From positions 19,468,001 to 19,532,000 of the forward strand of contig QCXZ01000137.1 of assembly GCA_025024175.1 (NCBI GenBank): 64,000 bases of DNA. The letters run 5' to 3'. The position numbers were made by a program, and so were the translations under genes. Every line of letters begins with the position of its first letter. Positions within the stretch are counted from its first letter, which is position 1. Under the pieces are notes generated by a model that saw only the letters and a program-made list of their open reading frames with translations, ran no database searches and was not told the origin of the DNA. The stretch comes from Rhyzopertha dominica. Taxonomy: Eukaryota > Arthropoda > Insecta > Coleoptera > Bostrichidae. Positions 5,594 to 60,900 of the stretch are shown piece by piece.

Positions 5594-6172
5594 ATGCTGA
5601 AAGCTAAGGGCTGGCCTTGGAACGCCTTGGGATTTAAACATAACTGTAACAAATATTATCAACAGCAATATGGCATTTATATTAGTAACGTAAAATTCGA
5701 ATTTGTAGGACAGCTTAAATATCTTGGAGTGGTGTTAGATCCTCAGTTAACTTTCACATGTTTTGTTGACGAAATATGTAAAAAAGTAGGGAGAAAGGTA
5801 GGATTTTTGTCCCGCATTTCAGCTAATTTGTCGCTGTACATTAGAAATTTAGTGTATAAAACCATAGTTTATCCTCATTTTGTGGACTGTATGTCCTTAC
5901 TAATTGTGTGCAAAAAAAAGAAGATACAAATCGAAATCGGCTGCAAATATTACAAACAATATTACAATATTCAACAGCAAATAGAGGCTGCGAATGTTAC
6001 AATTACTTTTAAATTAAGTAAAAGTATGTTGCCAGACTACTTAAAAAGACAATTACACACTAGAGCCGATGTACATTCCCATAATGTTCGTAATAAGCTG
6101 CATTACAATATAGAATTTTCGCGGAACACGCATGAGCAGAAACAACTATTTAGTGATGGTACGTTCTTTTAA
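5594..6172 (+). pseudogene. Non-LTR retrotransposon reverse transcriptase, C-terminal fragment
   Basis: The frame reads a C-terminal reverse-transcriptase region: Leu-Lys-Tyr-Leu-Gly-Val-Val-Leu-Asp, then a 'His-Phe-Val-Asp-Cys' step. The usual tail follows, with Leu-Pro-Asp-Tyr-Leu and a His-Asn-Val-Arg-Asn block that are standard in Jockey/CR1-group ORF2 proteins. The catalytic palm motifs lie upstream of what is preserved and the middle (about 5920-5990) is compressed. This is a 5'-truncated, internally deleted copy. Downstream to 6300 the sequence is AT-rich and could be its 3' end. Confidence 0.7.
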
Positions 6173-6584
6173 TTTTAGTGTTAAAGAATTGTATTTGACA
6201 AAATGTACTTGTACAGATAATGTATAATTAGTATTCTATTAGACTGTGCACTGTACTACCAGTTTTTGCTAAATAAATGCATATATACATTATACTTGCA
6301 TATAAACAATTTACAATTAAGTGAAGTAGCAGATAACAGATAAGAAAATAATTTTTGGCAAATATCTCAAAAACTGCTGAACCTGAACACTAAGCATTAA
6401 AAAAAGTGTAATTACTAGTGCCCTTCTTGCTCTACAAAATGGTGAACATAGTTCAGTTCTTTCTCCGTTTTCAAAAACATTTTTTTCGAGGTTGTTGAAA
6501 ACCTGACGTTTTTCGAAAAAACACGTGAATAACTGTAAAACTCATATTCAAATTCAGTAAGAAACCTAAAAATGCAATAATATA

Positions 6585-6770
6585 AAGGGTGTTCCATTTA
6601 AAATACAAAAGTTAGCATCTAACTCCGGCATAAGCGGAAGAGCGTGAAAGATGCCAATATTCTATTTCGATAGACCTTACTTGACATAACCTCTATGAAC
6701 AAAATTTCAGCATGATCAATTCGCACATTTCCATAAACTTCTAATAGTCAACCCTTCATGAATGACCCTG
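6585..6770. mobile_element. Possible short mariner-type MITE
   Basis: The segment begins with a TA-flanked AGGGTGTTCC-like end and finishes with GACCCTG next to TA, the usual ends of Tc1/mariner non-autonomous copies. Only about 10 terminal bases match in inverted orientation, so the call is weak. Confidence 0.35.
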
Positions 6771-7462
6771 TATACCAAAGTATAAATTTTCTTGTGTAAT
6801 TGCTAGTTTAATTTTTTACTTTTGCTGTTTTAATGTTTTTTCGTAAAACTACAGTTTTTTGTACTAGTGATTAGGTATTTATGGTTATAAAAATGAAAAT
6901 AAGTTTGCACCCTCTAAAATTTCAGTTCCCACTCTGATGCTACGTTCACGTGAAGACACAGATGTAGATACGGTCTGTAGATCGAATGTCAGCCTATGCA
7001 CATATTCTAGAGCAGTGTCACTACATCATGTGTATGAACTAGCAACGCTGCTCTAGTTTAAAGCTAGAGCAGTGATGAACGCACGATTTCGGATGTGTCG
7101 GGAGCCGCTGTAGTTGTACCGGCGTGTTGGAAATTTATTGCTAGAGCAGCAACCGAACATTAATTAATAATTTTAATTACAAAATTATGGCATAATCTGC
7201 ATTTTGGACCAAACAGCTTCGGGATTATGGGACATTAGTAGTAAATACTACCACGATAGAACAAAAGAAAAAAACACTACTCTGGATCTTGCAAGTTGAG
7301 CTCCACTTTTAAGTGACTGTATGTCCCTAGTTTTTTTATTCACTCTTATCGTCAAGACCGCTTTTTAGTTTTATTTCCAAAAATATAATGCAACACGTAA
7401 TTACAGTCGTTGCAAAAAGTGTTTTTTCTGGACATAGTTAAAAGTATACAAAAGGAAGGCAC
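6771..7462. other. No gene seen
   Basis: Unassigned sequence. A short motif around TCTAGAGCAGTG recurs in both orientations between 7010 and 7150, suggesting an old repeat, but no ends are visible. Confidence 0.4.
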
Positions 7463-7470
7463 TACTAGAT

Positions 7471-8128
7471 TAAGGTGACCAACCGTACGGATTTAGCCCG
7501 GACAGGTTTGTATTTTTGTTTACGAGTCCGTATTTAATATAGCATCCGGATTTGTCCGGATTTTAAAAATTTTTGTCTGGATTTGTCCGGTTTTTTGAGG
7601 GTATTTTACTTTTTCATTGTTGTCAGTCTTCTCATGCTTCAAGCTTCATGCAGTCAGGCGTTGCTAACTTCATAGTTTCATCTGTCACATTAATGTCAGC
7701 CACTGACATCTCATCTATTATGTAGATGGCTAATTGTTAGGGCATGAGCGAGAAAATATTGTGACGACCCGTAAGTCGCCATATTGCTCGTTCGTAGGGC
7801 AGCGAGTCTGCGCCGTAACTCCCTGGTTTGACAAAGTGAATGGCGATTGGTGAGGTGTGCGACAGGTCCTGTTGTTTGTTGTGACGTCATGACGTTTGCG
7901 TATTATTATCTTTACTGCGCATGCGTATGTCCAAGGATCATTTATCAAAAAATCTTATTAATATTACATTGAACTTCTAGGTATTTAGTTCTGTGGTGTN
8001 NGCGCGCAATTGCGTAGCCGGCATAACCTAATACCTGACCGTTCCTCTTTAACCTTTACTTTATCCTATATTATAAATAGCACCATGGAGGCTTCCGGAT
8101 TTTCTGGTATGGAAAGTTGGTCACCTTA
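7471..8128. mobile_element. hAT-like non-autonomous element (MITE), 658 bp
   Basis: The ends are inverted copies of TAAGGTGACCAAC. They are flanked by a perfect 8-bp direct duplication TACTAGAT at 7463-7470 and 8129-8136, the target size of the hAT superfamily. Subterminal TCCGGATTT-type motifs recur near both ends. No transposase is encoded. The interior carries a more GC-rich stretch (7740-7930) with another NRF-1-like TGCGCATGCG site and a two-base assembly gap near 8000. Confidence 0.8.
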
Positions 8129-8136
8129 TACTAGAT

Positions 8137-11100
8137 GTAATAATGATAATAAGAAGTTGCACTGGTAGTGTCCGTTTATTCATATGAAATTAAACTGTAT
8201 GTGTGAACATACTCTAGAGAAGTGTAGCAACTTTAATGTATGTTACTCTACGACATTACCCTATTTACTGCTCTTTGCAACAAAATGCTAGCTGCTGTAA
8301 ACATATTTCAGAGTAATCTAGAAACAAGTGTCGACATTTTAGTGTCTACGTGTACATATAGGTAACATGAAAGCAAAACCTAGCTACATAACTGGCAGCC
8401 TGGCAACATAACAAAGATTTAAAGACATGAACTCTTATTTTATCTAGCTTAATTAAGAAAAACGACACATAGTTACTGGTAAAGGGATTAACAGGATCAA
8501 ATCGCTAGTGTTTTTAATTTTGAAAATAAAAGAGTAAAGTCGGGTTTTCAGTAGGTTATTTTGTGACTCGGCATTTTGGCTGCTATGCTATTAACTTATT
8601 ATTCTAGGATTACGATTTAGTAATTCGACCTTCACAGGTTTACACTGTTGAAATGACAAGCTACGTTTCAGAAAGCAACTAGACCAGACAAAGCATTGTA
8701 TTTTGTCGATTGCGTAAAAATGCTACTCAAGAGCTCCAAAATTTGAAAGACCAAGCTGCCAATGGTCTCACGCAATTAAACAATGCGTTCATAAAAATAC
8801 AGCCTCTGTACGCCGAGTGCATTGTCATAGTACAAGCGCGAAGTACCCGGCACCTGCTTTTACGAAAGTACCCTCGGTTAAGAAACAACGCGCCCCATTT
8901 CCCACGAAATGCGGTAACTTAACCGTTCTGTTTAAAAAATTATACACCTTTTAACTTACAAGATCTTATCACGAACGTCTCTTATTAACGCCTTAATGCG
9001 CATGTGCGAGAGATGCGTATGAGGATCAGGAAGTATTGCTTACGTCTTCCTTATGGTACCTGATGCCGTAGCTGCATTGTTATACAGTGGGAAGATTGGT
9101 CTTTGTTATGTTTTCTCTTCCTTTAGCAAATCGCCCAATCATTCGTATAAAAGTATGCATTTCAGAGCGAGTAAATTACGCGAAGTTGATGCTTTCTAAC
9201 TGATGTTATTTATAAGTAACAAAGAAGCTGCAGTTGTGCGGATTATATCACTTCAATCCCAATTGTTTAAAAAACCAATACATCACACTTCCAACATTTA
9301 GTTTTGTAAAAGAGAACCATAATACCTGTATGTAGGTAATATAACTTTACTATGAATGTATATTGTATTGCAGAGCCCATAGACGGATACATAAGTTTAA
9401 AAATGATCGATGGCTATTGTATAAAATTAATTTTTATCGATAACGCATACCTGGGATTTTCATAATAAACTAATTTGTTAACAACGCTATAGAATGTATG
9501 AAAACTGACTTCATTGCACACCGAATTATACAAACGAAAACTTCTATACAAAGGACGCAATGGTGTATAGTATTTAGAGTATTGTAATAAAATGAAAGAG
9601 GACTTCTAGACAATAATTTAGGTACATTGACATATATCTCTCCCAACAAGTTAGGGTTAAAAATATTACCAAAACGTATATCGTGTAAGAAGAGAACACA
9701 TATTAAGTTTCATCTCGCTGTTATAGAATCTACCTTACAAATGTCTAAACTGATGACAGTGAATTTCCGGGAACAAGTTAAACATCTTAAATTACTGGTA
9801 CCGTCAGGTATCTGTGCGGGTGAAATTTTCGGATACCTGCATAGACGAGGGAATTGGGATAGACAAGAATAGCAGATAAGCGCTGGATCGGAACAACGTT
9901 TCTGGTACAAAGAGGGCTTAGCCCTAATTGTCATTACATTAGTTTAGGTTTGATAGTTGGATGTGGTTCCCTCTCCCATCTCTCGACATTATTTTGCCCT
10001 AAAATGGAGGACTCTTGCGGTACTGTAATATATTTAGTGACTAGAAATATCAAAGGATCGTTTCTTTCTCCAAAAAGTTGCAATACAATGTTGGTCTGAA
10101 ATAAACTCATTATGATCTATGTCCTAATAAATTATGTTTGAACATTTTTTTATAGTTGCTATGACAACGATAACAGGAGAGATAGTAGTTTCAAATCTTC
10201 AAAGCGGCAGTACTCAAGTGTGGTTTAATCAAATTTAGCGAAGGATAGCTTGTTTTAAAGTGCATTTTATGGTTTTCAATATAACCATAAATAATATATA
10301 ATTTATTGCAACTGTTTGATAACGGGGGCGTTAGTTTTAAATTTTTATATATGCTTGTTATAGACTTTTTTATTTGCTCATTAATCAAGCAAGATAAATT
10401 TGAAAATTGGAGGTCAATATCTCGAGCTTCATTAACTGCATTATCACCCTGATGTACGTGTAGTTAAAATTATAGCGATTTGAGCAAAGATCCATTTAAT
10501 TGTTCAATTTAAAATGAAGGCACTTATAAAAACAACAAAAAGTAAAGTTTATTATATAAAGTATAGTAAAGGTTATTACATGTGCCTAATATACGACGTT
10601 CTGTTATTATTGCACTAGTAGTTTAGGAGGACACTAAAGCATTATTAGTATAAAAAAATTATTATTGTATAATAAAGTTGGTAGGACAATTTTTTGTTAC
10701 ATCTACTGCGAAAAACACCCTGTTCCCTTTAATCGCACGTTTATTAGTACGAATGTAATTTAAAAAATTTTATTACGGTAATACTGGAGGTATGTAGTAC
10801 AAGCTATTATGCCTAATAACTGGTCCTAATTTACTGTCCTAATTAAACATCATTCTTGTGATTTCATATTAAGTCGCTAACAATTTATTCAGTTCTAAAC
10901 CAATTTTTTATTCATTACCTTATTAAAAAGTGTATGAAGAATAAGCGAAGAACAAGAATTATTGTGTGAGCGACTCAGAATTTCCATATGTTGAACTTGT
11001 GGATTAGTGGTTCAGTATATTGGAAAGTAAAACTTCAACCGGAAGATTATTTCCCATTATTTTTTCGATTTCGATACACAGCCACAAAATATTATTAACA

Positions 11101-13828: not shown

Positions 13829-16110
13829 CCAGGTGATTTTTTGAAAACTTCACACCTTAAATAACTTTAAATAGAGGAAAAATTTAAAATTTTGCAAAAA
13901 CAGGTAAACTTTTGTTTTCAGGGGGACAACTTTTGAGATAAGTTTTTAATGGATAGCGCTTACCCTCTTAGCGGGGTAGATACCCCTTCAAAAATTTTAA
14001 ATGAAACTAATCATCTTACGATACATCATTTAAAAGCTTATTACACAAGGAGTCTTGCCATGTAATTAGTTTTACTATTTTTTACCCATTGACGGGGTAG
14101 TGGGTCAAAAAGTGCATTGTAGCAAGTGGCTTATAAAATGGAATATTTTGGACTTTTTTTAACAAAATTTATTGTCTTGCAGTTACAATAAAAATTGTCC
14201 TTACTTAAGCCTAAAAAAACTTGTTAAAAAATAATTGTTACACCTAAGCAAAATGCCAAAAATACCTAAAATTTTCTTTCGACATTACTTGATATTGCAA
14301 CTCGACAGTTTATACTGAATTGGCTAAATAATTATCTACTTTGTGTTTCCAATTTTTTGTTTCAACTTTTTGGCTACTTCTTTGGCACGACCATCTTTTT
14401 GTTCACATTCCTTTTTATAAATCGCGTGAAATTTTAAAGTGAGAGTCCAAGTGATAATGGTTTATTCAACTGCCGAAAGGGTAGAAATAATTTTTATTTA
14501 CGGTGCTGAGCATAGCTGTGCTAGTGCGTCAGCAAGGGTGTTTAACGAATGGCACCCCGATAAAAATGTTGACGCTAGGTACATTCTCGATCTCGTGCAA
14601 AAAGACACTGGATCTGTAGTAAACAAAAAAAGGGCAGGGAATAGAGTCGTTGATGAAATGGCCCAACTTGAAGTACTTGGTCATTTTGCAATGGATCCAA
14701 CTAGCTCTTTGCGTAACATTTCTACAGCCACTGGACTTTCTTATTCATTTGTAAGGAAAGTTACAAAACTGCACAAATTCCATCCCTATAAGATGAAAAC
14801 TCTCCAGGAACTCGGCGAAGATGACTTCGATAGAAGACTGCAATTCTGCAAAATTATGACAGAAAAGATTATAGTAAATCCAAATCTAATAAAAAATATC
14901 TGCTTCAGTGATGAATGCACATTTTTTTGAACTGTAAATAAACATAACGTCAGGTACTGGAGTGACGAAAATCCTTATATTTTTCGAGAAGGTCATACAC
15001 AAGTTCCTCAGAAGCTGAACGTCTGGGCTGGAATACTTGGCAACGCAATTGTAGGTCCAATTTTCATTGATGGGACGCTAAATGGGGGAATGTATTTAGA
15101 ATTACTTGATAACGCCGTTATTGATCCTTTAATCACAGAGCAATTAGAAAACCAACGTAACCCTGAAGGAAATCCAATGTTGGATGAATACGAATTGTTT
15201 TACCAACATGATGGAGCCCCACCGCATTACGCCATTAATGTGCGAAATTGGTTAAATCATAGATTGCCTCTTCACTGGATTGGTAGGCGTGGAACAATTG
15301 AATGCCCGCCACGATCACCCGATTTGACTGCTTTAAATTTCTTTCTATGGGGTCATTTAAAATCTGTGGTTTACAAAACACAACCTACTAGCCTGGACGA
15401 TCTGCGAGAAAGAATTATTAACGAGTGCAGGAGGATTCCACCTGAAACTTTCCGAAAAGTGCAGCAGAAGTTCGAAAACCGTCTGTATTATTGTATGGAA
15501 AGAGGTGGTGCACATTTTGAGAATCTATTGTAAGGTTTCTATGATTTTGTTCACACTGTTTTTGGAGTTACAAATAAATAATTTTTCCTTTTCGTTGACA
15601 TGGACTTTCTAAAAAATTACATGATAAATACTTTAATGTTAATAATAATGTTAAAAGAAAATTTTCAGTATTCTGGGAGTTTTTTTAAGTGTCATATTTT
15701 TTACAAGTTGTTTGTTTAAATTTTGGGTTCTCGTAAGGACAAATTTTATTTCCGCTCTAAAATAAAATACATTTTGTTGAAAAGAGTTCAAAATATTCAA
15801 TTTAATAAGCAACCTGTTTCGTAGGCACTATTAATCTATCACCCCGTCAATAAGTTAAACGTGGTAAAACTAATTACATGGCCAGACTCTTTGTGAAATA
15901 AGCTTTCAAATGATGTATCACAAGACGGATAGTTCCATTTAAAATTTTTAAAGGGGTGTCTACCCTGCTCAGAGAGTAAGCGCTATCCATTAAAAACTTA
16001 TCTCAAAAGTTGTCCCCCTGCAAACAAAATTTTACCTGTTTTTGCAAGTTTTTTAATTTTTGCTATATTTAAAGTTATTTAAGGTATGAAGTTTTCAAAA
16101 AATCACCCTG
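13829..16110 (+). mobile_element. Full-length D-D(41)D mariner element, 2.28 kb
   Basis: The ends are TA-flanked (TA at 13827-13828 and 16111-16112). The inverted repeats are long, about 300 bp, and include the GGGGGACAACTTTTGAGATA and AGCGCTATCCATTAAAAACT blocks on opposite strands. Between them lies one transposase gene (14457-15533). The high arm similarity indicates a fairly recent copy. It inserted into an older element whose halves flank it. Confidence 0.85.
14457..15533 (+). pseudogene. Mariner (D-D41-D) transposase with one internal stop
   Basis: From the ATG at 14457 the frame runs 358 codons with a single break, TGA at 14928-14930 (codon 158), after which the same frame continues to the end. 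It shows an N-terminal helix-turn-helix region, then Ser-Asp-Glu-Cys-Thr-Phe-Phe (first catalytic Asp, about residue 151). Next are Gln-His-Asp-Gly-Ala-Pro-Pro-His (second Asp, 252) and Ser-Pro-Asp-Leu-Thr-Ala-Leu-Asn-Phe-Phe-Leu-Trp-Gly. In relatives the residue at 294 is Asp; here it is Asn. The 41-residue spacing places it in the D-D41-D group of the IS630-Tc1-mariner superfamily. Both the stop and the Asn change predict an inactive protein. Confidence 0.88.
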
Positions 16111-16889: not shown

Positions 16890-19140
16890 ATGGCAGTTTA
16901 CTACCAGGTAAGTTGACAACTATATAATATCGCCTGTCACAACTCATTATTAAACAAGAAAGCGTGACACGAGGATTTCACCGGTTAGCTCATCTCCGTA
17001 TTAAGATCCGTTGTTGTGTTTACCGGAAGAAGTAATTAAGTCGTTGAACTTTCAGAAAGTGTTCTGCGTGCTGCTGTTGATCTTTTACAATTGCGCTCAG
17101 GCTGAAAAGGAAAAGGAAAACAAGGAGGAGCTCGTGGCATCCGAGAGCAAGGACGGGCAACTAGAAATAGTTAAGCAAATTAAAAAAGTTAACGAGGACG
17201 GGTCGTACACGATTGGATATGAAGCTGACGATGGCTCCTTCAAGATCGAGAGCAGGGACGTTTTAGGCAACATCAAGGGAACATACGGCTTCGTAGACGA
17301 CGACGGGGAAATTAAAAGGGTATCCTACAGCACCAGCAATGCTAGTGAAATAGTAACAAGGACTGAAATTCCCCCAACTACAGTGGTACAACGAATTCCA
17401 AGGATCAATAGAACGCTAACTTCAACTACTAGAAAATTTTCGAGTGCAAATCCTACTACTCAGACGCCTTCGACTACTACAACAGTAATTCAAACAATTC
17501 CGAGGAGGAGAACGACGCAGTCTACAACAAGCTCAACAACATCAGCCACGACCGAGAAACCCAGTTATACTGAATTCATTAAAGCGGCAGTGGAAGCATC
17601 TAAAAAAACTCCTACTAAGCCACCTACGATTGTCTATGCTTCCCCAGTTCCCTTAAAATTTCAAGACCGAGCAAAGACTACTCCTTCCAGTCACGCAAAC
17701 AGCCAGAAATCGGAAGGGCAAATAATACGACCGGAAATCTCTACTGATATACCTTTAGTTGGACGTTTTATATTACGGAATCCCTCAGTGTTGGAGAGTG
17801 AATCGTCAATTATCAAACCTGTCACTGAAGAGCCCGAAGTACACGGAAATCTCCTGAGGAGGCAACTGCAACCCGACAACAGTTTCGATGTGCAGCAGCA
17901 CGTGGTTAATTTGAGACAGTCACATGGTGCCGATTCTACGGACGTGTATAGCGCATCGTTGACCACTGGAACTCCTAGACCTCTATTCACAACTACTTCA
18001 AGGCCTCAACTTCTTTCAAGTACTACAAGTCGATATCCACTACGATTTCATTTGGCTGAAGTTCCGACAACCCAAGCTCCACCTGAAGTAGCTCAAGAAA
18101 CATCAACACCTGAACCTTCTACCACACCAACTCCAGTGCCTGCAGTTCAAATACCAGCTAATCGGCCACCGCCACCTCAAGAACCACTTGTTGCCTTACG
18201 ACATCCTCAGAGAGGTACGATCCTGGTTCCCGTTAGCCAACTTCAAGGCCGGGACGTGCAAATCGAAAGAGTGCCAATTGCATATGTTCAACCACAGTCG
18301 CAATACGTCGTATCAAATGACAGATACGAGCCTCAAACCCAACAAGTCCCTGTATACATACGGAGAGTTCCTCCTCCTCCACTAAGATCCATGCCTGTTC
18401 AAGTTGATGAAAATGGCTATGTGAGAGAGCTGCCTCCAAGACCTACTTCAATTCCAATCGGAGTGACGCCAACTCCAGTGCCACAGTACATTAGTGACGA
18501 TTCTGAAAACGATATCGAAAACATCAAGCCCCCGGTTAGTGTCAAGGATTTCCAAAAACTGCTAGAAGAGCTCATAGTACGACAAACTCGGCTGGAACAG
18601 GTCAGTGCTCTCACACGTCGCAACCCATACTACAAAACAAGGGTGGTGTACCAGCAGCCGCCAGTTCCGTACGTTATTTCCAGAAACCCCGATGCACAAG
18701 CGGGTCCGGTGCAATTTATTCAGCAAGATCCTTCTTCGAGGCGGCAATACATCGCCGTGCCCGAGAGCCAAGCTAGTCAGTACCAGCAACAAGTGGTTGT
18801 AAGGCCACAAGAACGCCAATACGATCCTATCATTTACGAGGCCCAGCCGGTTGCATCCAGACGCTTCGCAAGGCTACATAATCCCAGATCAACGAGAGAA
18901 CAGGACTCCGACGATGGTTATTTACCTTCAGACGTCAGAGAAATGTTGCTATTAAAGATGCTGCAGCTCGCCATTAATCCCGCTTTGCCATTAGATGTTT
19001 CTGACGTAGAGGGACTAGAATCCGCGACAACTACTGAAGTTAGGAAAATGCCGGTAAGGAACGTTGAGATTTTAGGAGAAGAGACTGAAGACGGCAACAG
19101 AAGAACGAGGAGGGTAAAAAGGTATAGAAAAGATTATTAA
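16890..19140 (+). CDS. Cuticular protein with Rebers-Riddiford (CPR) domain, long Thr/Pro/Gln-rich form
   Basis: Exon 1 (16890-16907) encodes six residues and ends CAG before GTAAGT. Exon 2 (17056-19140) follows a TTTCAG acceptor in phase 0, giving 700 residues. This one-tiny-first-exon layout is typical of insect cuticle genes. Residues 1-22 form a signal peptide ending Ala-Gln-Ala. Residues about 52-101 match the chitin-binding R&R domain: Tyr-Glu-Ala-Asp-Asp-Gly-Ser, Gly-Thr-Tyr-Gly-Phe-Val-Asp-Asp-Asp-Gly, then Val-Ser-Tyr. The usual Ala-Asp-Glu-X-Gly-Phe-X-Pro ending is absent. The rest is low-complexity Thr/Pro/Gln/Arg-rich sequence ending in a basic Arg-Arg-Val-Lys-Arg tail. Most family members are 100-250 residues, so this is unusually long. 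It would be secreted into cuticle and bind chitin. Poly(A) signals AATAAA lie at 19334 and 19795. Confidence 0.9.
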
Positions 19141-37811: not shown

Positions 37812-38460
37812 TTAAACGTGAAATACAGCATCAGGCAAATGGCCACCATGAAACCTCTCGCATTCTTTTATTCTTTTGTTGAAATTTTGAATAACGCTTT
37901 CGCATAAATGTGTATGTGGTTCACTAATAACGCGCCGTATTTCCTCTTTAAGATCTTGAACTGTTTTAGGCCTATTCGCATACATCTTTTCCTTTACATA
38001 GCCCCAAAGAAAAAAGTCAATCGGTGTTAGACCGCACGAACTTGGTGGGCAATTTTGATCGCCATATCGAGAAATGACATGGCCTGATAACTTGGTCTGC
38101 AGTAACTCCATTGTTCCATGTGCTACGTGGCAAGCCGCAGCGTCTTGTTGGAGAAACATGTCCTTCACATCAATTACATCCAATTCGGGCCACAAAAACT
38201 CCGTCAACATTTGATGATACCGCACACCATTAACAATTAGCGCATTTCCAGCAGCAATTTCAAAGAAGTATGGCCCAATCAATCCGCCAGCCCAAAATGC
38301 ACACCAAACAGTTACTCCCATTACTTGCTTGAGTATCACAAGGGGATTTTCAGCACCCCAAATCCGACAGTTTTGCTATAACTTGACGTAATTGACGAAC
38401 TGTTTACGCAAAACGTTCGCCATTTTTGTAATGTGTTTTTACAATAAGTAAACGTCGTTC
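37812..38460 (-). pseudogene. Mariner-type transposase, C-terminal half
   Basis: A 175-codon frame (38339-37812) reads Val-Thr-Val-Trp-Cys-Ala-Phe-Trp-Ala-Gly-Gly, Phe-Leu-Gln-Gln-Asp-Ala-Ala-Ala-Cys-His and Leu-Thr-Pro-Ile-Asp-Phe-Phe-Leu-Trp-Gly, to a Gly-Gly-His-Leu end. The spacing between the last two catalytic aspartates is again 41. The usual Asp-Gly-Ala is Asp-Ala-Ala, and Cys-Asp-Leu-Thr is Cys-Gly-Leu-Thr. About 120 bp upstream, out of frame, more of the same protein is legible (Asn-Cys-Arg-Ile-Trp-Gly-Ala-Glu-Asn-Pro). It is 5'-truncated and dead. It belongs to a different lineage from the 14.5-kb copy. Confidence 0.75.
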
Positions 38461-43574: not shown

Positions 43575-43839
43575 ATATAATAAATTTCAGAAAAAAATTA
43601 TGACATTGTAAAATTAAAAATCTAAACAATCTTGACTAAAAATGGAAAAACTACATTCAAACCAGCAACGTAAAAATTAGCGTTCAAATAAAAAATTTAT
43701 AATGGGACAACTGAAATTGCAAAAATCATTTAGTATTGTCCAATTTTGGTCATTTAAATTTATATCTCTAATATTTCTAAATAGTTTAATTTTGATGATT
43801 TATTACAAAAATGTAAACTTTTTAAATTGTCCAAAGTAG

Positions 43840-44300
43840 AAGTATGTTTATATGGTAATAAATGATTCGCGAACGAAGAGTTTGTAGTTACAATGTCTGT
43901 ATTTTTGTACTTATTAAATTGTTTTAGATGCTCATTTCCCCTAATAAGAAAGGATCTTCCCGTCTGTCCAATATAAACGGAGTTACAGTCGTTACATGAA
44001 AAGCTATATACACCTGAATGATTTAAGACTAAAATTTTATCTTTATTATGGACAAAACGGGAACAGACTCTGCCTACAGTAGAAAAGGCAATATTTATGT
44101 ATTTAGATGCAAATAATTTAGAAAGGAAAATCGAGACTTGACCAATAAACCTAAGGGGGTACCAAATTTTTACTTTTTTATCACATGTGATGGTGTTAAA
44201 AGACTTAACTTAAATTTTGTCAGGTATTTGAAGTACAATTTTTCTATTAAGTAATTTGGAAAACCGTTATTATAAGCAATTTGAAGAATTACAGTTCTTT
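43840..44300 (-). pseudogene. Penelope-like protein, GIY-YIG endonuclease domain fragment
   Basis: The minus strand reads Ser-Lys-Leu-Phe-Ala-Ser-Lys-Tyr-Ile-Asn and Gly-Arg-Val-Cys-Ser-Arg-Phe-Val. It then reads Ser-Gly-Val-Tyr-Ser-Phe-Ser-Cys-Asn-Asp-Cys-Asn, Val-Tyr-Ile-Gly-Gln-Thr-Gly-Arg and Gly-Asn-Glu-His. This is the Gly-Val-Tyr / Tyr-Ile-Gly pair, catalytic Arg and Glu-His order of the Penelope endonuclease, with the usual cysteine pair ahead of it. A frameshift lies near 44150 and the reverse transcriptase is absent. Confidence 0.75.
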
Positions 44301-49090: not shown

Positions 49091-50718
49091 ATATTATACC
49101 AAAATTTAATTTAATTATTGATTGGGGTGCTCCGATGCTGCTTGTTTATATGAATGAACTAATGCGAATGGTACTTGACCTTGTTGGCCCCATATTAATT
49201 GTGCAAGTTTGTCTGTAATCCACAAAAATCTATTTATATCTGTTATATCTCGTCTCAGGTAATCATTTTTTCCAAACTATTAGTCTTTGACTAATGTTCA
49301 GCAAACAACTACGTACTTATTACGAGTAGTGCATCAATGCTGTTTTGCTTAATTAATTTAAAATAATTGTAACTGCACTTACATCACTCACTGCTTAGAC
49401 CGACTAAAACTAATTAGTGAAATTCCTATTCCTGTAATTTACGTTTAACTACAGTTAGGGATGCGCTCTAGTAAATGCGTTGGGATCTACTATGCATGAG
49501 CTTGCACATTTAGCATTTTATATTTGTTTATATTATATATAGGACTTCGGTTTACTACCGAACTTTTTGTTCTGTTGCTCATTATTTCGTCTCCAACAGA
49601 TCATATTTTATATAAAATTGAAATATATTTGGTGTGCTGACTGTACATACATCGGTAAATTGATTACAGAGATACAAACGAAATAATACAAGGCATGCTT
49701 TTCTGTATTTACAAATGCACAAATAGCAAAATATATATATACAGTAAGTTCTACTTTAGATATTTTTCAATTGTATACGTATGCTTGGCTCATATTAGTC
49801 AGACAATTTACTGCAAAGAAATAAACCAAAATAAGTAGGACACTCTTGTATGTTAAGTATTGCTCGATTTATTTAAATAAAAGTCTGATTGAAGAATGCG
49901 AATGGGAATTATGGTAAATAAACTGTACATTTTCATATTTTATGCTCCTTAAAAGGACGTCAAAGATGACCTTCACAATTTTAAATAAATTTAAATAAAT
50001 TAAAATAAAAAGGTTTTCTTATGCATTGTTTTGTGATAATAAATGAACAACTCGACAATCCTTTCAAAAGTGCACAAAGCTGTGTAGCATCAGCGGCGCT
50101 ACTAGCATTGAAGGTGTGCTTTAGATATCGTATATCACGTTTTCATCATTATCATCTAAACATGCTTAGTACCTTAAAAGTTAGTTCGCTTGCTTTTTTC
50201 CAATCCTCCTATTTTAAACCCTACAACATACAAAGGATCAAGTAGCATTATCTTTGAACAGGAAGAACTGACAATTTTCCCTTTTGGGATAGAGATCGTT
50301 TCTTAAAGATTATTTTAAGAAGTCTAAAAGTAAAAGTAGAAGGGATTCGAACGCCTACTTACAATGCTCGTTGCCGTTCATTATAACGAACTCGTAATTA
50401 TTCAAATTACAGTGACTAACAAGCAAATGCAAACTCAACAAAACAAGTTATGCATTACTGCATTTTGGATATATGGGGTAATGAACTGGAAGCTTTTATA
50501 TATTTTTAGTTACTACAAAAAATCTCTTCCATAAAATTAATCCTAAAGAAATGTTGTATAATTACAAACATATTGCAGGTACGAGGTACACCTTCTCCAT
50601 CAAGACGACAGGCTTAAAATCGGCGCGACATGCTATTTATGCGGTTATCTAGTGCCTGCTGGTCCAGATTATCCCACTCGTCAGTTGCAGCACCACGAAG
50701 CTCTCATTACAGTGTTAG
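49091..50718. other. No gene seen
   Basis: AT-rich. A short Trp-Cys-Ala-Asp-Cys-Thr-Tyr-Ile-Gly reading at 49630-49690 recalls a GIY-YIG domain scrap, but is too short to call. The rest is unassigned up to the foldback element's target site. Confidence 0.4.
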
Positions 50719-50727
50719 GCGGTATTC
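50719..50727. repeat. Left 9-bp target-site duplication GCGGTATTC
   Basis: GCGGTATTC directly abuts the foldback element's left end and is repeated exactly at 58307-58315. Confidence 0.9.
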
Positions 50728-53700
50728 GGGTGCGTTAAGCTGGCCCGGCAGTTTTTCATTTTTCAAAATATTTTTACACAACTGAAGAATGCTAGGCAAA
50801 TGCTAGCGAATGCTGTCATTTTTAAGAAAAATGCTAGGTATATAAGGTAAAAAAAATAATTTAATTTTCCGGGCCAACTTAACGACAGCCCGGACATATT
50901 AAATATTTACAAAAATCTTTTGCTACATATAGAATGCTAGCGAAATGCTAGCGAATGCTGGGGTTTATTTCAAAAATGCTACGTAAATAAAGCCGTACGG
51001 ATAACTCAAAGTTGCCGGACCAACTTAACGCCAGCCCGGACCTGGTTATTTTTTGCAGTTTTTGTCATCAGTCCGTGAATGCTAGCGAAATGCTGGCGAA
51101 TGCTGGAGTTTATTTCAAAAATGCTATGTAAATAAGGCCATACGGATAACTTAAAGTTGCCGGGCTTAAATAACGCCAGCCCGGACCTGGTTATTTTTTT
51201 GCAGTTTTTGTCATCAGTCCATGAATGCTAGCAAAATGCTGGCGAATGCTGGGGTTTATTTCAAAAATGCTATGCAAATAAGGCCATACGGATAACTTAA
51301 AGTTGCCGGGCTTAAATAACGCCAGCCCGGACCTGGTTATTTTTTGCAGTTTTTGTCATCAGTCCGTGAATGCTAGCGAAATGCTGGCGAATGCTGGGGT
51401 TTATTTCAAAAATGCTATGTAAATAAGGCCGTACGGATAACTTAAAAATGCTGGGCCTAAATAACGCCAGCCCGGACCTGGTTATTTTTTGCAGTTTTTG
51501 TCATCAGTCCGTAAATGCTAGCGAAATGCTGGCGAATGCTGGAGTTTATTTCAAAAATGCTATGTAAATAAGGCCATACGGATAACTTAAAGTTGCCGGG
51601 CTTAAATAACGCCAGCCCGGACCTGGTTATTTTTTGCAGTTTTTGTCATCAGTCCGTGAATGCTAGCGAAATGCTGGCGAATGCTGGAGTTTATTTCAAA
51701 AATGCTATGTAAATAAGGCCGTACGGATAACTTAAAAATGCTGGGCCTAAATAACGCCAGCCCGGACCTGGTTATTTTTTGCAGTTTTTGTCATCAGTCC
51801 GTGAATGCTAGCGAAATGCTGGCGAATGCTGGGGTTTATTTCAAAAATGCTATGTAAATAAGGCCATACGGATAACTTAAAGTTGCCGGGCTTAAATAAC
51901 GCCAGCCCGGACCTGGTTATTTTTTGCAGTTTTTGTCATCAGTCCGTGAATGCTAGCGAAATGCTGGCGAATGCTGGGGTTTATTTCAAAAATGCTATGT
52001 AAATAAGGCCGTACGGATAACTTAAAAATGCCGGGCCTAAATAACGCCAGCCCGGACCTGGTTATTTTTTGCAGTTTTTGTCATCAGTCCGTGAATGCTA
52101 GCGAAATGCTGGCGAATGCTGGGGTTTATTTCAAAAATGCTATGTAAATAAGGCCATACGGATAACTTAAAGTTGCCGGGCTTAAATAACGCCAGCCCGG
52201 ACCTGGTTATTTTTTGCAGTTTTTGTCATCAGTCCATGAATGCTAGCGAAATGCTGGCGAATGCTGGGGTTTATTTCAAAAATGCTATGTAAATAAGGCC
52301 GTACGGATAACTTAAAAATGCTGGGCCTAAATAACGCCAGCCCGGACCTGGTTATTTTTTGCAGTTTTTGTCATCAGTCCGTGAATGCTAGCGAAATGCT
52401 GGCGAATGCTGGGGTTTATTTCAAAAATGCTATGTAAATAAGGCCATACGGATAACTTAAAGTTGCCGGGCTTAAATAACGCCAGCCCGGACCTGGTTAT
52501 TTTTTGCAGTTTTTGTCATCAGTCCATGAATGCTAGCGAAATGCTGGCGAATGCTGGGGTTTATTTCAAAAATGCTATGTAAATAAGGCCGTACGGATAA
52601 CTTAAAAATGCTGGGCCTAAATAACGCCAGCCCGGACCTGGTTATTTTTTGCAGTTTTTGTCATCAGTCCGTGAATGCTAGCGAAATGCTGGCGAATGCT
52701 GGGGTTTATTTCAAAAATGCTATGTAAATAAGGCCATACGGATAACTTAAAGTTGCCGGGCTTAAATAACGCCAGCCCGGACCTGGTTATTTTTTGCAGT
52801 TTTTGTCATCAGTCCGTGAATGCTAGCGAAATGCTGGCGAATGCTGGGGTTTATTTCAAAAATGCTATGTAAATAAGGCCGTACGGATAACTTAAAAATG
52901 CTGGGCTTAAATAACGCCAGCCCGGACCTGGTTATTTTTTGCAGTTTTTGTCATCAGTCCGTGAATGCTAGCGAAATGCTGGCGAATGCTGGGGTTTATT
53001 TCAAAAATGCTATGTAAATAAGGCCGTACGGATAACTTAAAAATGCTGGGCCTAAATAACGCCAGCCCGGACCTGGTTATTTTTTGCAGTTTTTGTCATC
53101 AGTCCGTGAATGCTAGCGAAATGCTGGCGAATGCTGGGGTTTATTTCAAAAATGCTATGTAAATAAGGCCGTACGGATAACTTAAAAATGCTGGGCCTAA
53201 ATAACGCCAGCCCGGACCTGGTTATTTTTTGCAGTTTTTGTCATCAGTCCGTGAATGCTAGCGAAATGCTGGCGAATGCTGGGGTTTATTTCAAAAATGC
53301 TATGTAAATAAGGCCATACGGATAACTTAAAGTTGCCGGGCTTAAATAACGCCAGCCCGGACCTGGTTATTTTTTGCAGTTTTTGTCATCAGTCCGTGAA
53401 TGCTAGCGAAATGCTGGCGAATGCTGGGGTTTATTTCAAAAATGCTATGTAAATAAGGCCGTACGGATAACTTAAAAATGCTGGGCCTAAATAACGCCAG
53501 CCCGGACCTGGTTATTTTTTGCAGTTTTTGTCATCAGTCCGTGAATGCTAGCGAAATGCTGGCGAATGCTGGGGTTTATTTCAAAAATGCTATGTAAATA
53601 AGGCCATACGGATAACTTAAAGTTGCCGGGCTTAAATAACGCCAGCCCGGACCTGGTTATTTTTTGCAGTTTTTGTCATCAGTCCGTGAATGCTAGCGAA

Positions 53701-55100
53701 ATGCTGGCGAATGCTGGGGTTTATTTCAAAAATGCTATGTAAATAAGGCCGTACGGATAACTTAAAAATGCTGGGCTTAAATAACGCCAGCCCGGACCTG
53801 GTTATTTTTTGCAGTTTTTGTCATCAGTCCGTGAATGCTAGCGAAATGCTGGCGAATGCTGGGGTTTATTTCAAAAATGCTATGTAAATAAGGCCGTACG
53901 GATAACTTAAAAATGCTGGGCCTAAATAACGCCAGCCCGGACCTGGTTATTTTTTGCAGTTTTTGTCATCAGTCCGTGAATGCTAGCGAAATGCTGGCGA
54001 ATGCTGGAGTTTATTTCAAAAATGCTATGTAAATAAGGCCATACGGATAACTTAAAGTTGCCGGGCTTAAATAACGCCAGCCCGGACCTGGTTATTTTTT
54101 GCAGTTTTTGTCATCAGTCCGTGAATGCTAGCGAAATGCTGGCGAATGCTGGAGTTTATTTCAAAAATGCTATGTAAATAAGGCCATGCGGATAACTTAA
54201 AGTTGCCGGGCTTAAATAACGCCAGCCCGGACCTGGTTATTTTTTGCAGTTTTTGTCATCAGTCCGTGAATGCTAGCGAAATGCTGGCGAATGCTGGAGT
54301 TTATTTCAAAAATGCTATGTAAATAAGGCCATACGGATAACTTAAAGTTGCCGGGCTTAAATAACGCCAGCCCGGACCTGGTTATTTTTTGCAGTTTTTG
54401 TCATCAGTCCGTGAATGCTAGCGAAATGCTGGCGAATGCTGGAGTTTATTTCAAAAATGCTATGTAAATAAGGCCATACGGATAACTTAAAGTTGCCGGG
54501 CTTAAATAACGCCAGCCCGGACCTGGTTATTTTTTTGCAGTTTTTGTCATCAGTCCATGAATGCTAGCAAAATGCTGGTGAATGCTGGGGTTTATTTCAA
54601 AAAGCTATGTAAATAAGGCCGTACGGATAACTTAAATATGCTGGGCCTAAATAACGCCAGCCCGGACCTGGTTATTTTTTGCAGTTTTTGTCATCAGTCC
54701 GTGAATGCTAGCGAAATGCTGGCGAATGCTGGGGTTTATTTCAAAAATGCTATGTAAATAAGGCCATACGGATAACTTAAAGATATTGGGCCTAAATAAC
54801 GCCAGCCCGGACCTGGTTATTTTTTGCAGTTTTTGTCATCAGTCCGTGAATGCTAGCGAAATGCTGGCGAAAGCTGGGACTTATTTCAAAAATGCTATGT
54901 AAATAAGGCCCTACGGATAACTTAAAGTTGCCGGGCCATCTTCAGCTCTCACTTCCTAAATGCCAGCAAGAAACTGTTTGTCATTACAATTTTTTTAATC
55001 ATTCCATTAATGCTAGCGAATGCTGGGATTTGTTTGAAAAATAAGGCGTAAATAACTGCCGGTCTATCTTAACGTCAACCCGGTCCTGATTTTTTGCACT
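50728..55100 (+). repeat. Left foldback arm: terminal module plus about 27 tandem 145-bp units
   Basis: The CCAGCCCGGACCTGGTTATT block recurs at 51031, 51176, 51322, 51467 and onward every 145 bp to 54803. Two unit types differ at the end (GTTGCCGGGCTT versus AAATGCTGGGCCT, linked with CCATACGG versus CCGTACGG). They mostly alternate from 51322 to 53932, making a 290-bp higher-order repeat; a run of one type ends the array. Within each unit, 10-11 bp words GAATGCTAGC / GAAATGCTGGC / GAATGCTGG form a mini-array. The innermost unit (54930-55100) is strongly diverged. Confidence 0.93.
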
Positions 55101-56956
55101 TTATATCATCAGTCTGTGAATCAAAATAAAAACATAAACAATAAAAAAAAGTTACTAACGATAAAGGTACTTCTAATTGTTTTTTTTTGGCGCAACCCAA
55201 TATACGTATTGTCACAACTGTTTGGTTTCAAATTTGAATCCACGACAGCTATTAGTTTTGTCACTTTGACATTAAAAAAATATTATTATTATTTATGTCA
55301 GTACAATTATGCCTTTTCTCCAAATTCCTTTATTCTAAATACAGTAATCAGTTTCGAAGTAATTAATGCAACCCCATCCTCGGACCATCGGTTACAAAAA
55401 GAAGCATAGATCTACATACATTTAAATTTTACCATCAATTTAGCTTACAATAAACCATTGTCATTCTGACGTTATTAATTTAACATAAATATCATTGCCA
55501 CCTGAACGCTAAACTTTTTCTGAAAGAGACTGTTAATTAGTGAAGCAGGTTCAAAATTTACTTGAGAATTTTGATGTTTTTATTCTTTTATTCTTGTTTT
55601 ACAATCTTTTTAAAGTTCCACCTATACATACACAGTTACAGTCATCGCATCGTAATTTGTACACCCCACATTTATCAATCATTGGTACTATATCTTTATT
55701 ATTAAATATAGCTTTTTCCAAAATTAAGGCAGGTTTAAAAATAATTAATATATTATCTTTATTTAAAATATCTTTAATTTTGCTGCTAATGTTACCGACA
55801 TAAGAAATATTTTTTAATACATTGCAAAACATTCATATTTGGAAAATATTCATATATTAATTTATTATATAATTTCTTATTTAATAATGTATCAACTATT
55901 TTTGTTTTTATGCCATTAATTTCTGCTATTTGTTTTATTATATTTGGCTCATTACTAAATTTGGTGTGATTTAAAGGTACTTTTAATAATCTATTTAAAT
56001 TACTATCTAAAACAGCTATTTTGTGTTGCCATGGGTGCAAAGACTTACTGTGTACAGATATTCCTGTAGAAGTTGGTTTTCGAAATATATTAAATTCAAT
56101 TTTAGAATTAACCTCTAATATATAAAAAATTAAATTGTTCTCACATTCAATTTCTACATCAAACTGAATATTAGATTTCTTAGCATTCAGGTGGTTAACA
56201 AATGTTTTTCATTCTTCTAAATTATCTGTCCAAATACCTAAAANATCACCCACATATCATTTGTAAAATAAAATTTTATTTCTGTAAATATTTGAATCGT
56301 TCATGATATAATTGCTTTTATAACTGTCGACATATACGTATATCAGCTAGAACGGGCGACAAAGGACTGCCCATTGCTAAAGATTCTTGGGCGTAAGTTA
56401 CATTGATGTATTTGAAAAAATTTTGTTCCAGACAAATACGAAGTAATTTTAATAAATCATCAGCTGTATCACTTGATAAGTTGCTATTATAAAAAAAATC
56501 ATTTAGAATTGATAGTCTTTCATTAACCAGGATTCTTGTATACAAATTTTTAACGTCTAACGAAAAAAATGTTGCGTTAAATGGGAGATTATTTCTTTCA
56601 AATTACTAATTAAATCAATAGAATTTTTAATAACGAACTGAAATTGTAAATTAATATTTTCTTTTATATATGAATTTAAAAAATTTTGTACATCATATGT
56701 AGGAGATTTTATATAAGATACCACTGGCTGAATAGGAATTAAATCAGGAATAGTGCTTTTTTGTAATTTTAATAAACCATACATTCTTGGTATTGTGGTA
56801 TTATCTGGTGCAAATTTTTTGTTTACCTCTGGAGATATTAGTTGAATTTAGTGTTGTTTTAACTTGTCTGATATTCAAATTATTGCTTTCCATAAAATTT
56901 TACTTCTTTTTATGGTAATCTATCCTATTGAGATTAACTAAGTTATTGCCATTATC
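55101..56956 (-). other. Central loop of the foldback element
   Basis: Non-repetitive, very AT-rich sequence between the arms. Its main content is the decayed Penelope-like gene at 55600-56850. 55110-55590 has no recognised coding sequence (a plus-strand 97-codon frame at 55116 has no features I can assign). Confidence 0.6.
55600..56850 (-). pseudogene. Penelope-like reverse transcriptase with partial GIY-YIG domain
   Basis: Minus-strand readings in order begin with Met-Tyr-Gly-Leu-Leu-Lys-Leu-Gln-Lys, then Val-Ser-Tyr-Ile-Lys-Ser-Pro-Thr-Tyr. Leu-Tyr-Thr-Arg-Ile and Leu-Ala-Met-Gly-Ser-Pro-Leu-Ser-Pro-Val-Leu-Ala-Asp-Ile follow. Then comes a worn palm Tyr-Val-Gly-Asp where Tyr-Val-Asp-Asp is expected, followed by Ile-Phe-Arg-Lys-Pro-Thr and Leu-His-Pro-Trp-Gln-His-Lys. 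Near the end are Lys-Cys-Gly-Val-Tyr-Lys-Leu-Arg-Cys-Asp-Asp-Cys and Cys-Ile-Gly. This is the domain order of Penelope-like elements. Both ends are missing: the finger region at the start and the endonuclease after its first motif. Frameshifts and one N are present. It is not closely similar to the 44-kb copy. Confidence 0.8.
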
Positions 56957-58306
56957 ATTATTAAAAATAACCAGGTCGGGGCCGGCGTTAAGCTGTCCGG
57001 CAACGTTCATTCATCCGTACGGTCTTATTTACATAGCATTTTTGAAATAAACCCCAGCATTGGCCAGCATTTCGCTAGCATTCACGGACTGATGACAAAA
57101 ACTGGAAAAAATAACCAGGTCCGGGCTGGCGTTATTTAGGCCCAGCATCTTTAAGTTATCCGTATGGCCTTATTTACATAGCATTTTTGAAATAAACCCC
57201 AGCATTCGCCAGCATTTCGCTAGCATTCACGGACTGATGACAAAAACTGCAAAAAAAATTACCAGGTCCGGGCTGGCGTTATTTAGGCCCGGCAACTTTA
57301 AGTTATCCGTACGGCCTTATTTACATAGCATTTTTGAAATAAACCCCAGCATTCGCCAGCATTTCGCTAGCATTCATGGACTGATGACAAAAACTCAAAA
57401 TAATAACCAGGTCCGGGCTGGCGTTATTTAGGCCGGGCAACTTTAAGTTATCCGTACGGCCTTATTTACATAGCATTTTTGAAATAAACCCCAGCATTCT
57501 CCAGCATTTCGCTAGCATTCATGGACTGCTGACAAAAACTCAAAATAATAACCAGGTCCGGGCTGGCGTTATTTAGGCCGGGCAACTTTAAGTTATCCGT
57601 ACGGCCTTATTTACATAGCATTTTTGAAATAAACCCCAGCATTCGCCAGGATTTCGCTAGCATTCATGGACTGATGACAAAAACTNAAAGTAATAACCAG
57701 GTCCGGGCTGGCGTTATTTAGGCCGAGCAACTTTAAGTTATCCGTACGGCCTTATTCACATAGCATTTTTGAAATAAACCCCAGCATTCGTCAGCATTTC
57801 GCTAGCATTCACGGACTGAAGACAAAAACTGCAAAAAAATAACCAGGTCCGGGCTGGCGTTATTTAGGCCCGGCAACTTTAAGTTATCCGTACGGCCTTA
57901 TTTACATAGCATTTTTGAAATAAACCCCAGCATTCGCCAGCATTTCGCTAGCATTCAGGGACTGATGACAAAAACTGCAAAAAATAACAAGGTCCGGGCT
58001 GGCGTTAAGTTGGCCCGGCAACTTTGAGTTATCCGTACGGCCTTATTTACGTAGCATTTTTAAAATAAACCCCAGCATTCGCTAGCATTTCGCTAGCATT
58101 CTATATGTAGCAAAAAATTTTTGTAAATATTTAATATGTCCGGGCTGTCGTTAAGTTGGCCCGGAAAATTAAATTATTTTTTTTTACCTTATTTACCTAG
58201 CATTTTTCTTATAAATGACAGCATTCGCTAGCATTTGCCTAGCATTCTTCAGTTGTGTAAAAATATTTTGAAAAATGAAAAACTGCCGGGCCAGCTTAAC
58301 GCACCC
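56957..58306 (-). repeat. Right foldback arm: about 9 inverted 145-bp units plus terminal module
   Basis: The reverse-complement block begins CCAGGTC at 56971, 57115, 57262, 57407, 57552, 57697 and 57843, with a variant at 57988 and the terminal module to 58306. Units differ more among themselves than in the left arm (small indels in the poly-A and CAAAAT segments). Confidence 0.92.
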
Positions 58307-58315
58307 GCGGTATTC
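58307..58315. repeat. Right 9-bp target-site duplication GCGGTATTC
   Basis: Exact copy of 50719-50727 immediately after the element's right end. Confidence 0.9.
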
Positions 58316-60900
58316 TGTATGCCAGGCTACCTTTTTTTAGTTGATAGCATTGCGAGCACAATTAATAAAAATTATGGATTATTGTCTTGTTAAACTGGTC
58401 ACCAAATTCTTGGCGGAGTGACAGCAGTCGGAACAGTACCTCTTTCTGGCTCAGATATATTCGGGCGAGGAATGATATTATCGCGGAGCTTTTTTGAATG
58501 ATTTGTTTTCATGGCGCCTTACTTTAATTAAAAGTATGACTATCGTAAGATATAAAAATAAATAAAACTAATATATCTTAATTATTCAATTATTATTTTT
58601 TTACTTTCTTTGCTTAAATTAAATCGGATACGGCCACCGGCATATCCTTTGCACTTTGCATTTTGCTCTGTATTTGTCTTTTATTATTCTGTCAATTTGA
58701 TGCTGCCAAATTTTACTTTCATACTGATACCGCAAGATAATTCGATTCTTCCGCAGAAGTAAATTCAGACGGAGCATTTGTGTTAAATGGAAACCATGCA
58801 AATGTATTTTTCAAACTGGATAGTTACATAGTTGTTATAAATGCACTTTAAACATTGTTTTTAATTCTTGGAAAACATCAGGTTTATTTGACGTCAAAAA
58901 TCTTTTGCCTGCATCTACACTCCATTTTCTTCCCCCATAGCATTTTATAAAAGCTGTATTTTTTCCGTTTACCTCAAAAGGTGCATCTTGTTTCCCCGCA
59001 AAAAGATACTAAGAAAAGTCAGCTTTTTAAAAATGATGCTCAAATGCGCGCTTTATTTTAAAAAATCGACATTAGCTAAATCTTCTATATCTATAAAGAA
59101 TTGCCACGAGAGAGTCATAGCACTGCACTGTCATAGTACAACAAAGAAGAATGTTCGGCTCCATATCATCAAGCAGTTCTTTTTAAAGCCTTACTTTCAG
59201 TGGACCAGATTTTACAAAATTTACCGCATTCACCACACGTCCTAACACGCCTGATTCAATGCAGGACTCGTGTGATTTAACGCAAGCGCTTCTTTATTAA
59301 TAATGCAGTGGGGTCTACAGTCCACAGTGCATTTGGTAATTTGCTTCGGATAGGTGCCTGCACCGGTATACCAGATGCATTTCCATAAGTCCTTTGACTT
59401 TAAGCAAGATTGCACGGCGTGACGATGTTTGGAAGGGGGTGATATGCAGCAAACATGAAAACATTGGTTTTTACGTTTCATAACTATACCCAAAATGCTT
59501 ACTAATAGCCCATTAAATACATGAACAGACACGATCTCAAAATATTGCACTCAATTTGTTTTGATAACTTTTTTATAGAAAGGTAACAATTAAAATCTAG
59601 ACTTGAAACAATGTCTTCAATTGTAATTACTTCCACATCCAACGGATGGGAAGTATTGTATCGCAAAAAAAATTTTCAAAAATTTTTATTTGCTCGCTTT
59701 AAAATGGTCGAAAACGCAAAAAAAACAAAATTTGAGCACAAACAAATTTCTTGTATGTGTGTCTGTGTCTGTGGTATTGTTTGTTGGCACCATAACTTTC
59801 GAAAGACTTAATATATGAACTTAAATTTGGCAGTTGTATAAATCTCAAAAAAATTGAGGGGTAACTACCCCTTTTGCAAATTTTTATTTTTTATTCGTTT
59901 TAGTATGTGATTAGTAGTATAACTGCGAGTATTATTCATTCTTATAAATTTTCGGTGCAGCAAACTGTTTAGAAGATATTAGCAAACAAGCGTCACTTAA
60001 AGAAGACGGCTTGTCCTAAATATCTCCGAATATATTAAATATATTCAAAAAACGGAAATACGTCAGATAGAAAATAAAATTTCTCACAAAAAGTGTCAGA
60101 AAATTTATTCAAAATTTTGACATTTTCGAAATATTTCCAAAAAACCTATTTTGCACCCTGCTCGTACGATTTTTTTTTAATTTTTGTATTATATAGAAAA
60201 TCAAATTTCTGATCAGAAAGCACTCTTGTAATTTTTTGTTAAGTTAATAATTTTCGAGTTATTTGGAAAAACGATTTTAAAATCTGTTCGTCTTAGAAAA
60301 AATGTATAGATAGGAACCTGATTACTAAACGTATAGTATAAGAAATAAAAACGTAAATATCATTTTGACAATTGGATGTGGAAGTATTGATTCAATTTGC
60401 AGCGGTTTTTTTAGAGGTCATTGACACTTGTTGGAACTTCTTCGGTCTGAACAAACCACAACGGAGCACGCTCGCGCATGTGGGAAGCGTTACAGATAGT
60501 TATGCCAGCGTTGCCCAAGCTGTTTGACCGGTATTCATATTTATGTGAACCTATCCATTTGGTGTCGATTTATTAGCCTTTATTTGTGAAAGGTAGCTTT
60601 CCAGTTGAAATCACAGACAGTAATGGCCATCTAATTATCCCTTAATGGAAAAGTACGGTTTGTAACAAAGTTGTATAGACTGGTTATAAATTGTTGCAAC
60701 TGACAACCGCGCAAAGGAAATGTTTTTTAGGAACGTCTTTCTCCAAAGAAGACCGAAATTCGTCTGTTGCACATTTAAATTCAAGCGACACTAGAAATTG
60801 CGTGAGCTTTACCGACACCAGCGCACTTAGACCAATTCAAATTATTTTCAGACGTGAATATGTCAATAATCTTGAACCGTACATAGCATTTTCAAATGAG
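58316..60900. other. No gene confidently seen
   Basis: AT-rich. On minus around 58700-58810 a Phe-Pro-Phe-Asn-Thr-Asn-Ala-Pro-Ser-Glu-Phe reading hints at a worn hAT-type transposase end. The minus frame 59550-59242 is open for 102 codons but has no recognisable motifs. Confidence 0.35.

Follow-up and report, generated by a model that had tools for sequence, protein, structure and literature searches.

A probable Mutator foldback transposon family of Rhyzopertha dominica with arms of 145-bp tandem units and a Penelope-like remnant in its loop

Introduction

Foldback elements cause genome rearrangements and can seed satellite DNA. The FB-NOF element (FB4) of Drosophila melanogaster has repeat-built inverted arms, a 9-bp target site duplication and a loop that occurs with or without the NOF gene; its arm repeats are short (10-31 bp). 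Target site duplications of the Mutator (MULE) superfamily measure 9-11 bp whereas those of P and hAT elements measure 8 bp, and Galileo is a foldback of the P type. Exact inverted ends with duplications of fixed length are the mark of cut-and-paste elements.

Rehavkus-1_TC of Tribolium castaneum is described as having inverted termini built from tandem units of 164 bp (PMC10218199), and the available text on the Rehavkus group lists 9-bp duplications, a minisatellite, a PHD finger and arthropod hosts (PMC6446971). Rehavkus serves as the outgroup in a 2026 survey of arthropod MULEs, in whose accessible text the words 'foldback' and 'tandem' do not occur (PMC13359780). Tetris, a foldback of Drosophila virilis, is reported to have a 220-bp tandem unit in its inverted repeats, derived partly from the terminal domain, and duplications of 8-10 bp; it was assigned to Mutator, no transposase copy being found for it according to the portion of the article at hand (PMC4079207). 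The same source reports secondary transposase-binding sites in the arm repeats of Galileo. Ssk-FB4 is presented as a multicopy foldback (Pack-TIR) with captured foreign gene sequence that has been amplified (PMC8277862).

The element described here lies in a window of 64,000 nucleotides, which is the whole stretch of Rhyzopertha dominica DNA that was analysed. It resembles FB-NOF in its repeat arms and 9-bp duplication, and the transposase found in one copy of its family, L030, has a relative that bears the label NOF-FB; the element differs in having units of 145 bp instead of 10-31 bp and in a common loop that is a fragment of a Penelope-like element (PLE). Like Rehavkus-1_TC, which is 9.5 kb long (PMC6446971), the window element has inverted termini of tandem units, but the unit is 145 bp (27.6 copies in the left array) rather than 164 bp and the window copy has PLE cargo and no transposase, a comparison made by description and not by sequence. 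Tetris lacks a transposase copy whereas a broken one is linked to the window family, and the cargo of Ssk-FB4 and other multicopy Pack-TIRs is host gene sequence whereas here it is a retroelement fragment. Rehavkus-1_TC and Tetris are earlier examples of foldbacks made of tandem units, and Ssk-FB4 is one of foldback cargo; what is unusual here is the type of cargo. Notable in the family are the dead PLE cargo in 14 copies, the broken but linked transposase and an arm expansion that looks one-sided.

Structure of the window element

One element occupies positions 50728-58306 of the window (7579 bp) between two identical 9-bp target site duplications, GCGGTATTC, at 50719-50727 and 58307-58315 (0 of 9 mismatches). 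It begins with GGGTGCGTTAAGC and its 3' end is the reverse complement of that start. The left terminal domain (50728-50931, plus strand, about 204 bp) starts GGGTGCGTTAAGCTGGCCCGGCAG and includes a 201-bp match common to the family. It is followed by the left array (50932-54936, plus strand), in which TRF finds 27.6 units of 145 bp as assembled, with 96% matches, and by degenerate inner units recognised from partial unit matches (54937-55121, plus strand). The loop (55122-56962, minus strand, 1841 bp) contains the PLE remnant and is about 96-99% identical to full-loop copies where they align. The right array (56963-58101, minus strand; TRF) consists of 7.8 units of 145 bp as assembled, with 93% matches, inverted relative to the left array. 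The right terminal domain (58102-58306, minus strand) repeats the left end in inverse orientation, with 98.0% identity over the outer 201 bp. Including terminal and degenerate parts, the arms measure 4394 bp (left) and 1344 bp (right) and have opposite orientations. The window copy thus has the long inverted arms of tandem units, able to pair, that define a foldback, and a tandem repeat directly inside both ends, as the Rehavkus group has with its minisatellite beside the terminal repeat.

The foldback anatomy and boundaries proposed in the first-pass annotation, made from the letters alone, agree with direct reading, TRF and the comparison of ends; its arm sizes of 4.3 and 1.35 kb are close to those measured, and the 9-bp duplication is perfect, as it had said. 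Isolated N bases are present within the element at 56244 and 57686, and the window sits on an 82.9-Mb contig of a 479-Mb assembly. Rfam gave 0 matches in window positions 50000-59000.

Distribution of the family in the genome

A 23-base end motif, with two mismatches at most, occurs at 55 places in the 479-Mb genome (25 forward and 30 reverse), and the reversed pattern, used as a control, at none. This difference, together with duplications at 16 of 18 copies, rules out chance as the source of the observed structure. The first 210 bp of the element as query gave at least 81 matches (40 scored among 93 candidates). Sorted by position, the 55 termini make up 18 pairs that face inward, plus 19 single ends; the analysis covered every pair and seven of the single ends (L017, L026, L029, L030, L031, L032 and C64:31042507, the last with 61 bases).

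An exact 9-bp duplication flanks 13 of the 18 two-ended copies (window, L010, L011, L014+L015, L016, L018, L019, L020, L021, L024, L025+L034, L027 and L028) and a 10-bp duplication three more (L012, L013 and L023), while L009 and L022 have none. Duplications within the 9-11 bp typical of Mutator are thus found at 16 of 18 two-ended copies. Comparison of flanks at fixed positions gave 9 exact matches in 16, and reading the flanks directly added five more positives to these; the fixed-position comparison had missed these because of a mutated first base at two ends (L011 and L027) and three 10-bp duplications. That other copies should have the same ends and 9-bp duplications had been expected from the window alone, and both are seen, with the addition of the 10-bp cases.

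Arm lengths vary widely from copy to copy, and unit numbers are unequal not only among copies but also between the left and right arms of a single copy. Of 16 copies, 15 have whole units in each arm, the exception being L023, whose right arm has none. L028 has arrays on both sides, the right arm of L025 is only about 100 bp, and that of L027 is 4.0 kb. Loops range from none (L020) and 5 bp (L023) to about 2.4 kb, nested insertions aside. In L027 the loop agrees with bases 1-219 of the window loop, after which the sequence runs into the middle of an arm unit; it was considered as an empty loop predating PLE capture, and the junction is just as consistent with a deletion. L031+L036 shares with the L009 loop no more than the first 158 bases of the latter, and a transposase looked for there by match was not found.

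L009 and L010, on different contigs, have 7.2 kb of left flank that is 99.7% identical, the homology stopping at an N gap in the contig of L010. The two may be one insertion represented twice, and the shared flank ending at a gap points to duplication of some pieces of this family by the assembly. L009 was also considered as a recombinant or composite element, but an assembly duplicate is likelier since the homology with L010 ends at the gap. On C64, two outward-facing single ends separated by 4.8 kb each lie next to GAATTCGGA, the pattern that a single inserted copy would leave after being split by a rearrangement or tandem duplication.

The linked transposase and the superfamily

The one-ended copy L030 has the family end, 145-bp units of the family and a transposase gene of NOF-FB/MULE type that contains two in-frame stops. 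A DDE transposase of MULE/IS256 type is linked to the ends of the family. No second copy of the L030 transposase query piece was found in the assembly, the next match having 47% identity. The first-pass annotation had proposed a link to Mutator and mobilisation in trans: the link is borne out by L030 and by the fold of a relative, and a transposase copy of the expected kind exists, but the sole copy found is broken by the two stops. A profile search retrieved P0067, labelled NOF-FB transposable element protein (E=6e-63), which relates the enzyme to the NOF-FB branch by the source's own label and not through the Drosophila NOF sequence. In the fold comparison, carried out on a relative, ISCth4 ranked above P and Hermes.

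Regarding the PHD finger, a C-terminal cluster of cysteines and histidines was seen by eye in the relatives P0015 and P0066; the L030 frame beyond position 5508 has no match to relatives. A PDB sequence search with the single protein gave three weak matches (E 0.47-0.87) that were judged unrelated, a PDB search with the profile gave 0 matches and NCBIfam returned nothing informative on the transposase. A first structure model (alignment A2) was set aside (pLDDT 41).

A single genome here ties together the ends, arms, inner deletion derivative and transposase copy, which places the family by evidence and not by analogy. Matched to no named family here, the copies are best explained as a new foldback family of a known kind, the comparison with Rehavkus being one of descriptions.

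The Penelope-like cargo

The window loop contains, on the minus strand, pieces of a reverse transcriptase (RT) and of a GIY-YIG endonuclease. The RT piece (56321-56847), with the motif MGSPLSPVLADI, runs in two frames and matches RVT_1 at E=0.0022, below the Pfam cut-off; a middle piece in a frame different from that of the RT end lies at 55795-56208, and the endonuclease remnant at 55536-55832, all on the minus strand. The L028 counterpart of the endonuclease is an unbroken frame of 168 codons that matches Pfam GIY-YIG (E=8.5e-6). RT and GIY-YIG endonuclease together are a combination known for Penelope-like elements, and from this pairing and the RT motif we take the loop to be of PLE origin.

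The PLE loop is present in 14 copies (window, L009-L013, L014+L015, L016, L018, L019, L022, L025, L028 and L029), 13 of which are among the 18 two-ended copies; the other, L029, is not two-ended. It is absent from five two-ended copies (L020, L021, L023, L024 and L027). Directly after the RT motif the frame breaks at the same place in 14 of 14 loops, a further stop in the continuing frame is common to 13 (L028 differs), and an intact PLE reading frame is found in none of the 14. The identical break in every loop indicates that the fragment was already dead in the common ancestor and multiplied as passenger DNA. As read from these lesions, a dead piece of retroelement was spread as the cargo of a DNA transposon. 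The first-pass annotation, right about the anatomy, had overlooked this remnant and its presence in 14 copies. Among the titles listed by literature searches on Penelope and foldbacks, none concerned a PLE-carrying foldback, which does not establish its absence from print, and the word Penelope is absent from the available text on Tetris (PMC4079207).

L021 and L024 have a 649-bp loop that matches the interior of L030 at 98.5%. It is conceivable, if somewhat doubtful, that the arms alone are the mobile unit, with the loop as a swappable cargo bay and the arm units as an expandable array of putative transposase-binding sites. In the same tentative reading, the bay would hold the transposase gene (L030), its deletion derivative (L021 and L024), a retroelement body (14 copies) or nothing (L020 and L023). 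Class I (reverse transcriptase) sequence would then have been spread by class II cut-and-paste transposition.

Variation among arm units

The units compared, 255 in all, were aligned from 15 copies; L018, L025 and L028 were left out, L018 on account of arm lengths and a loop that match those of L016, from which it is nevertheless a separate insertion. Units of the same arm differ by a mean distance of 0.053, those in opposite arms of one element by 0.060 and those of different elements by 0.064. By rank across arms, the two outermost units (0.050 and 0.045) are more alike than the next two (0.059 and 0.071). In the left arm of the window element two unit variants alternate over much of the array, and the lowest distance, 0.016, falls at a six-unit spacing, as a duplicated six-unit block would give; no alternation is apparent by eye in the right arm. 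The alternation and six-unit period on the left, the former not apparent on the right, suggest that the long arm probably grew on its own side, and unit variants allow arm growth to be traced.

Inside the terminal domain the end motif recurs in inverted form with a score of 15; 500 shuffled versions of one arm unit score 7.0 on average (sd 1.15) and 13 at most. The arm units score 9.5 on average (7.7 in the other orientation), which is weak against the shuffles, and the idea that every unit is a clear transposase site was dropped. By analogy with Galileo, the arm repeats may be putative secondary transposase-binding sites.

Alternative explanations and proposed mechanism

The PLE sequence, RT and GIY-YIG alike, that lies between or beside the arms of 14 copies might mean that the element is itself a Penelope-like retroelement, with its own repeats as arms, spreading by reverse transcription. 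This is barely credible given that all 14 PLE copies have the same frame break, that the five PLE-free two-ended copies keep the same ends and 9-10 bp duplications, and that exact inverted ends with duplications of fixed length point to cut-and-paste. A foldback of another superfamily, of P type (as is Galileo) or hAT, whose resemblance to Drosophila FB would be convergent, is very improbable: the linked transposase has relatives that carry the labels NOF-FB and MULE, ISCth4 precedes P and Hermes in the fold ranking, and the duplications are of 9-10 bp and not 8 bp.

The remaining concern is the assembly, which may have mis-sized or misjoined the left array such that there is no true 4.4-kb arm. 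Repeat arrays are prone to mis-sizing, and the two isolated N bases and the common flank of L009 and L010 ending at a gap add to this, but 16 of the 18 two-ended copies, with very different arm lengths, preserve the ends, the inversion and the duplications, and L027 also has a long arm, on the right. An artefact of this kind is quite unlikely.

The window element is thus in all likelihood a non-autonomous Mutator (MULE) foldback DNA transposon of a NOF-FB/Rehavkus-like branch, mobilised as follows. Transposase from an L030-like copy would bind the element ends, and perhaps inner end-like motifs also, and the bound enzyme would cut the element out and insert it elsewhere, in trans. The PLE fragment would have been captured once, or inserted once and then truncated, and would have ridden along afterwards; its entry may have been by ordinary insertion or by template-switch capture, for which the available text on Pack-TIRs gives gap-filling and FoSTeST models (PMC8277862). 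The arms would lengthen when blocks of units are duplicated within one arm by unequal exchange or replication slippage.

Not every foldback has yielded a linked transposase copy (Tetris has not), and one is linked here. The common lesion shows that a retroelement fragment has been multiplied as DNA-transposon cargo. Elsewhere in the window, the frame at 17005-19140 contains Chitin_bind_4, an insect cuticle-protein domain (E=8.4e-10), which fits the insect host that the first-pass annotation had supposed.

Related transposases and other family copies

NOF-like relatives of the broken NOF-FB/MULE-type transposase in a one-ended copy of the foldback family (L030), a piece of which served as the query, occur at 47% identity at C1:18130469, C41:44614919, C136:69929452 and other places in the genome. 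Open frames of 809 codons are present at three of these places, and at several a second match lies 5-8 kb off.

In a two-ended family copy (L014+L015, C64:30293342-30304296), the right arm contains a nested retroelement that appears, by eye, to be BEL/Pao-like and has an open frame of 1773 codons. On the same contig, at C64:31047085-31060000 (L017+L035), a family end of 205 bp adjoins a 3.35-kb inverted duplication (748-4095 and 5958-9306, 98.8% identical), and a second family end in the opposite orientation lies 4.8 kb upstream of the first with an identical 9-bp flank, GAATTCGGA. Judged by eye, a reading frame inside the inverted duplication looks like a C-type lectin; its sole Pfam match, to Y_Y_Y, is weak (E=0.052). 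The left flanks of two further two-ended copies, L009 and L010, are 99.7% identical over 7.2 kb on two contigs, and the identity stops at an N gap in one of them; this match is probably an assembly duplicate.

Other reading frames in the window

A 711-codon open frame on the plus strand (17005-19140) encodes the insect cuticle-protein domain Chitin_bind_4 (E=8.4e-10). Frames at 14430-15533 (plus) and 37812-38375 (minus) look by eye like mariner/Tc1-type transposase remnants; Pfam at 0.01 matched nothing in 14931-15530 or 37815-38375. A Penelope-like GIY-YIG fragment at 43760-44209 (minus; E=0.0026, sub-threshold) differs in sequence from the Penelope-like piece in the foldback loop.
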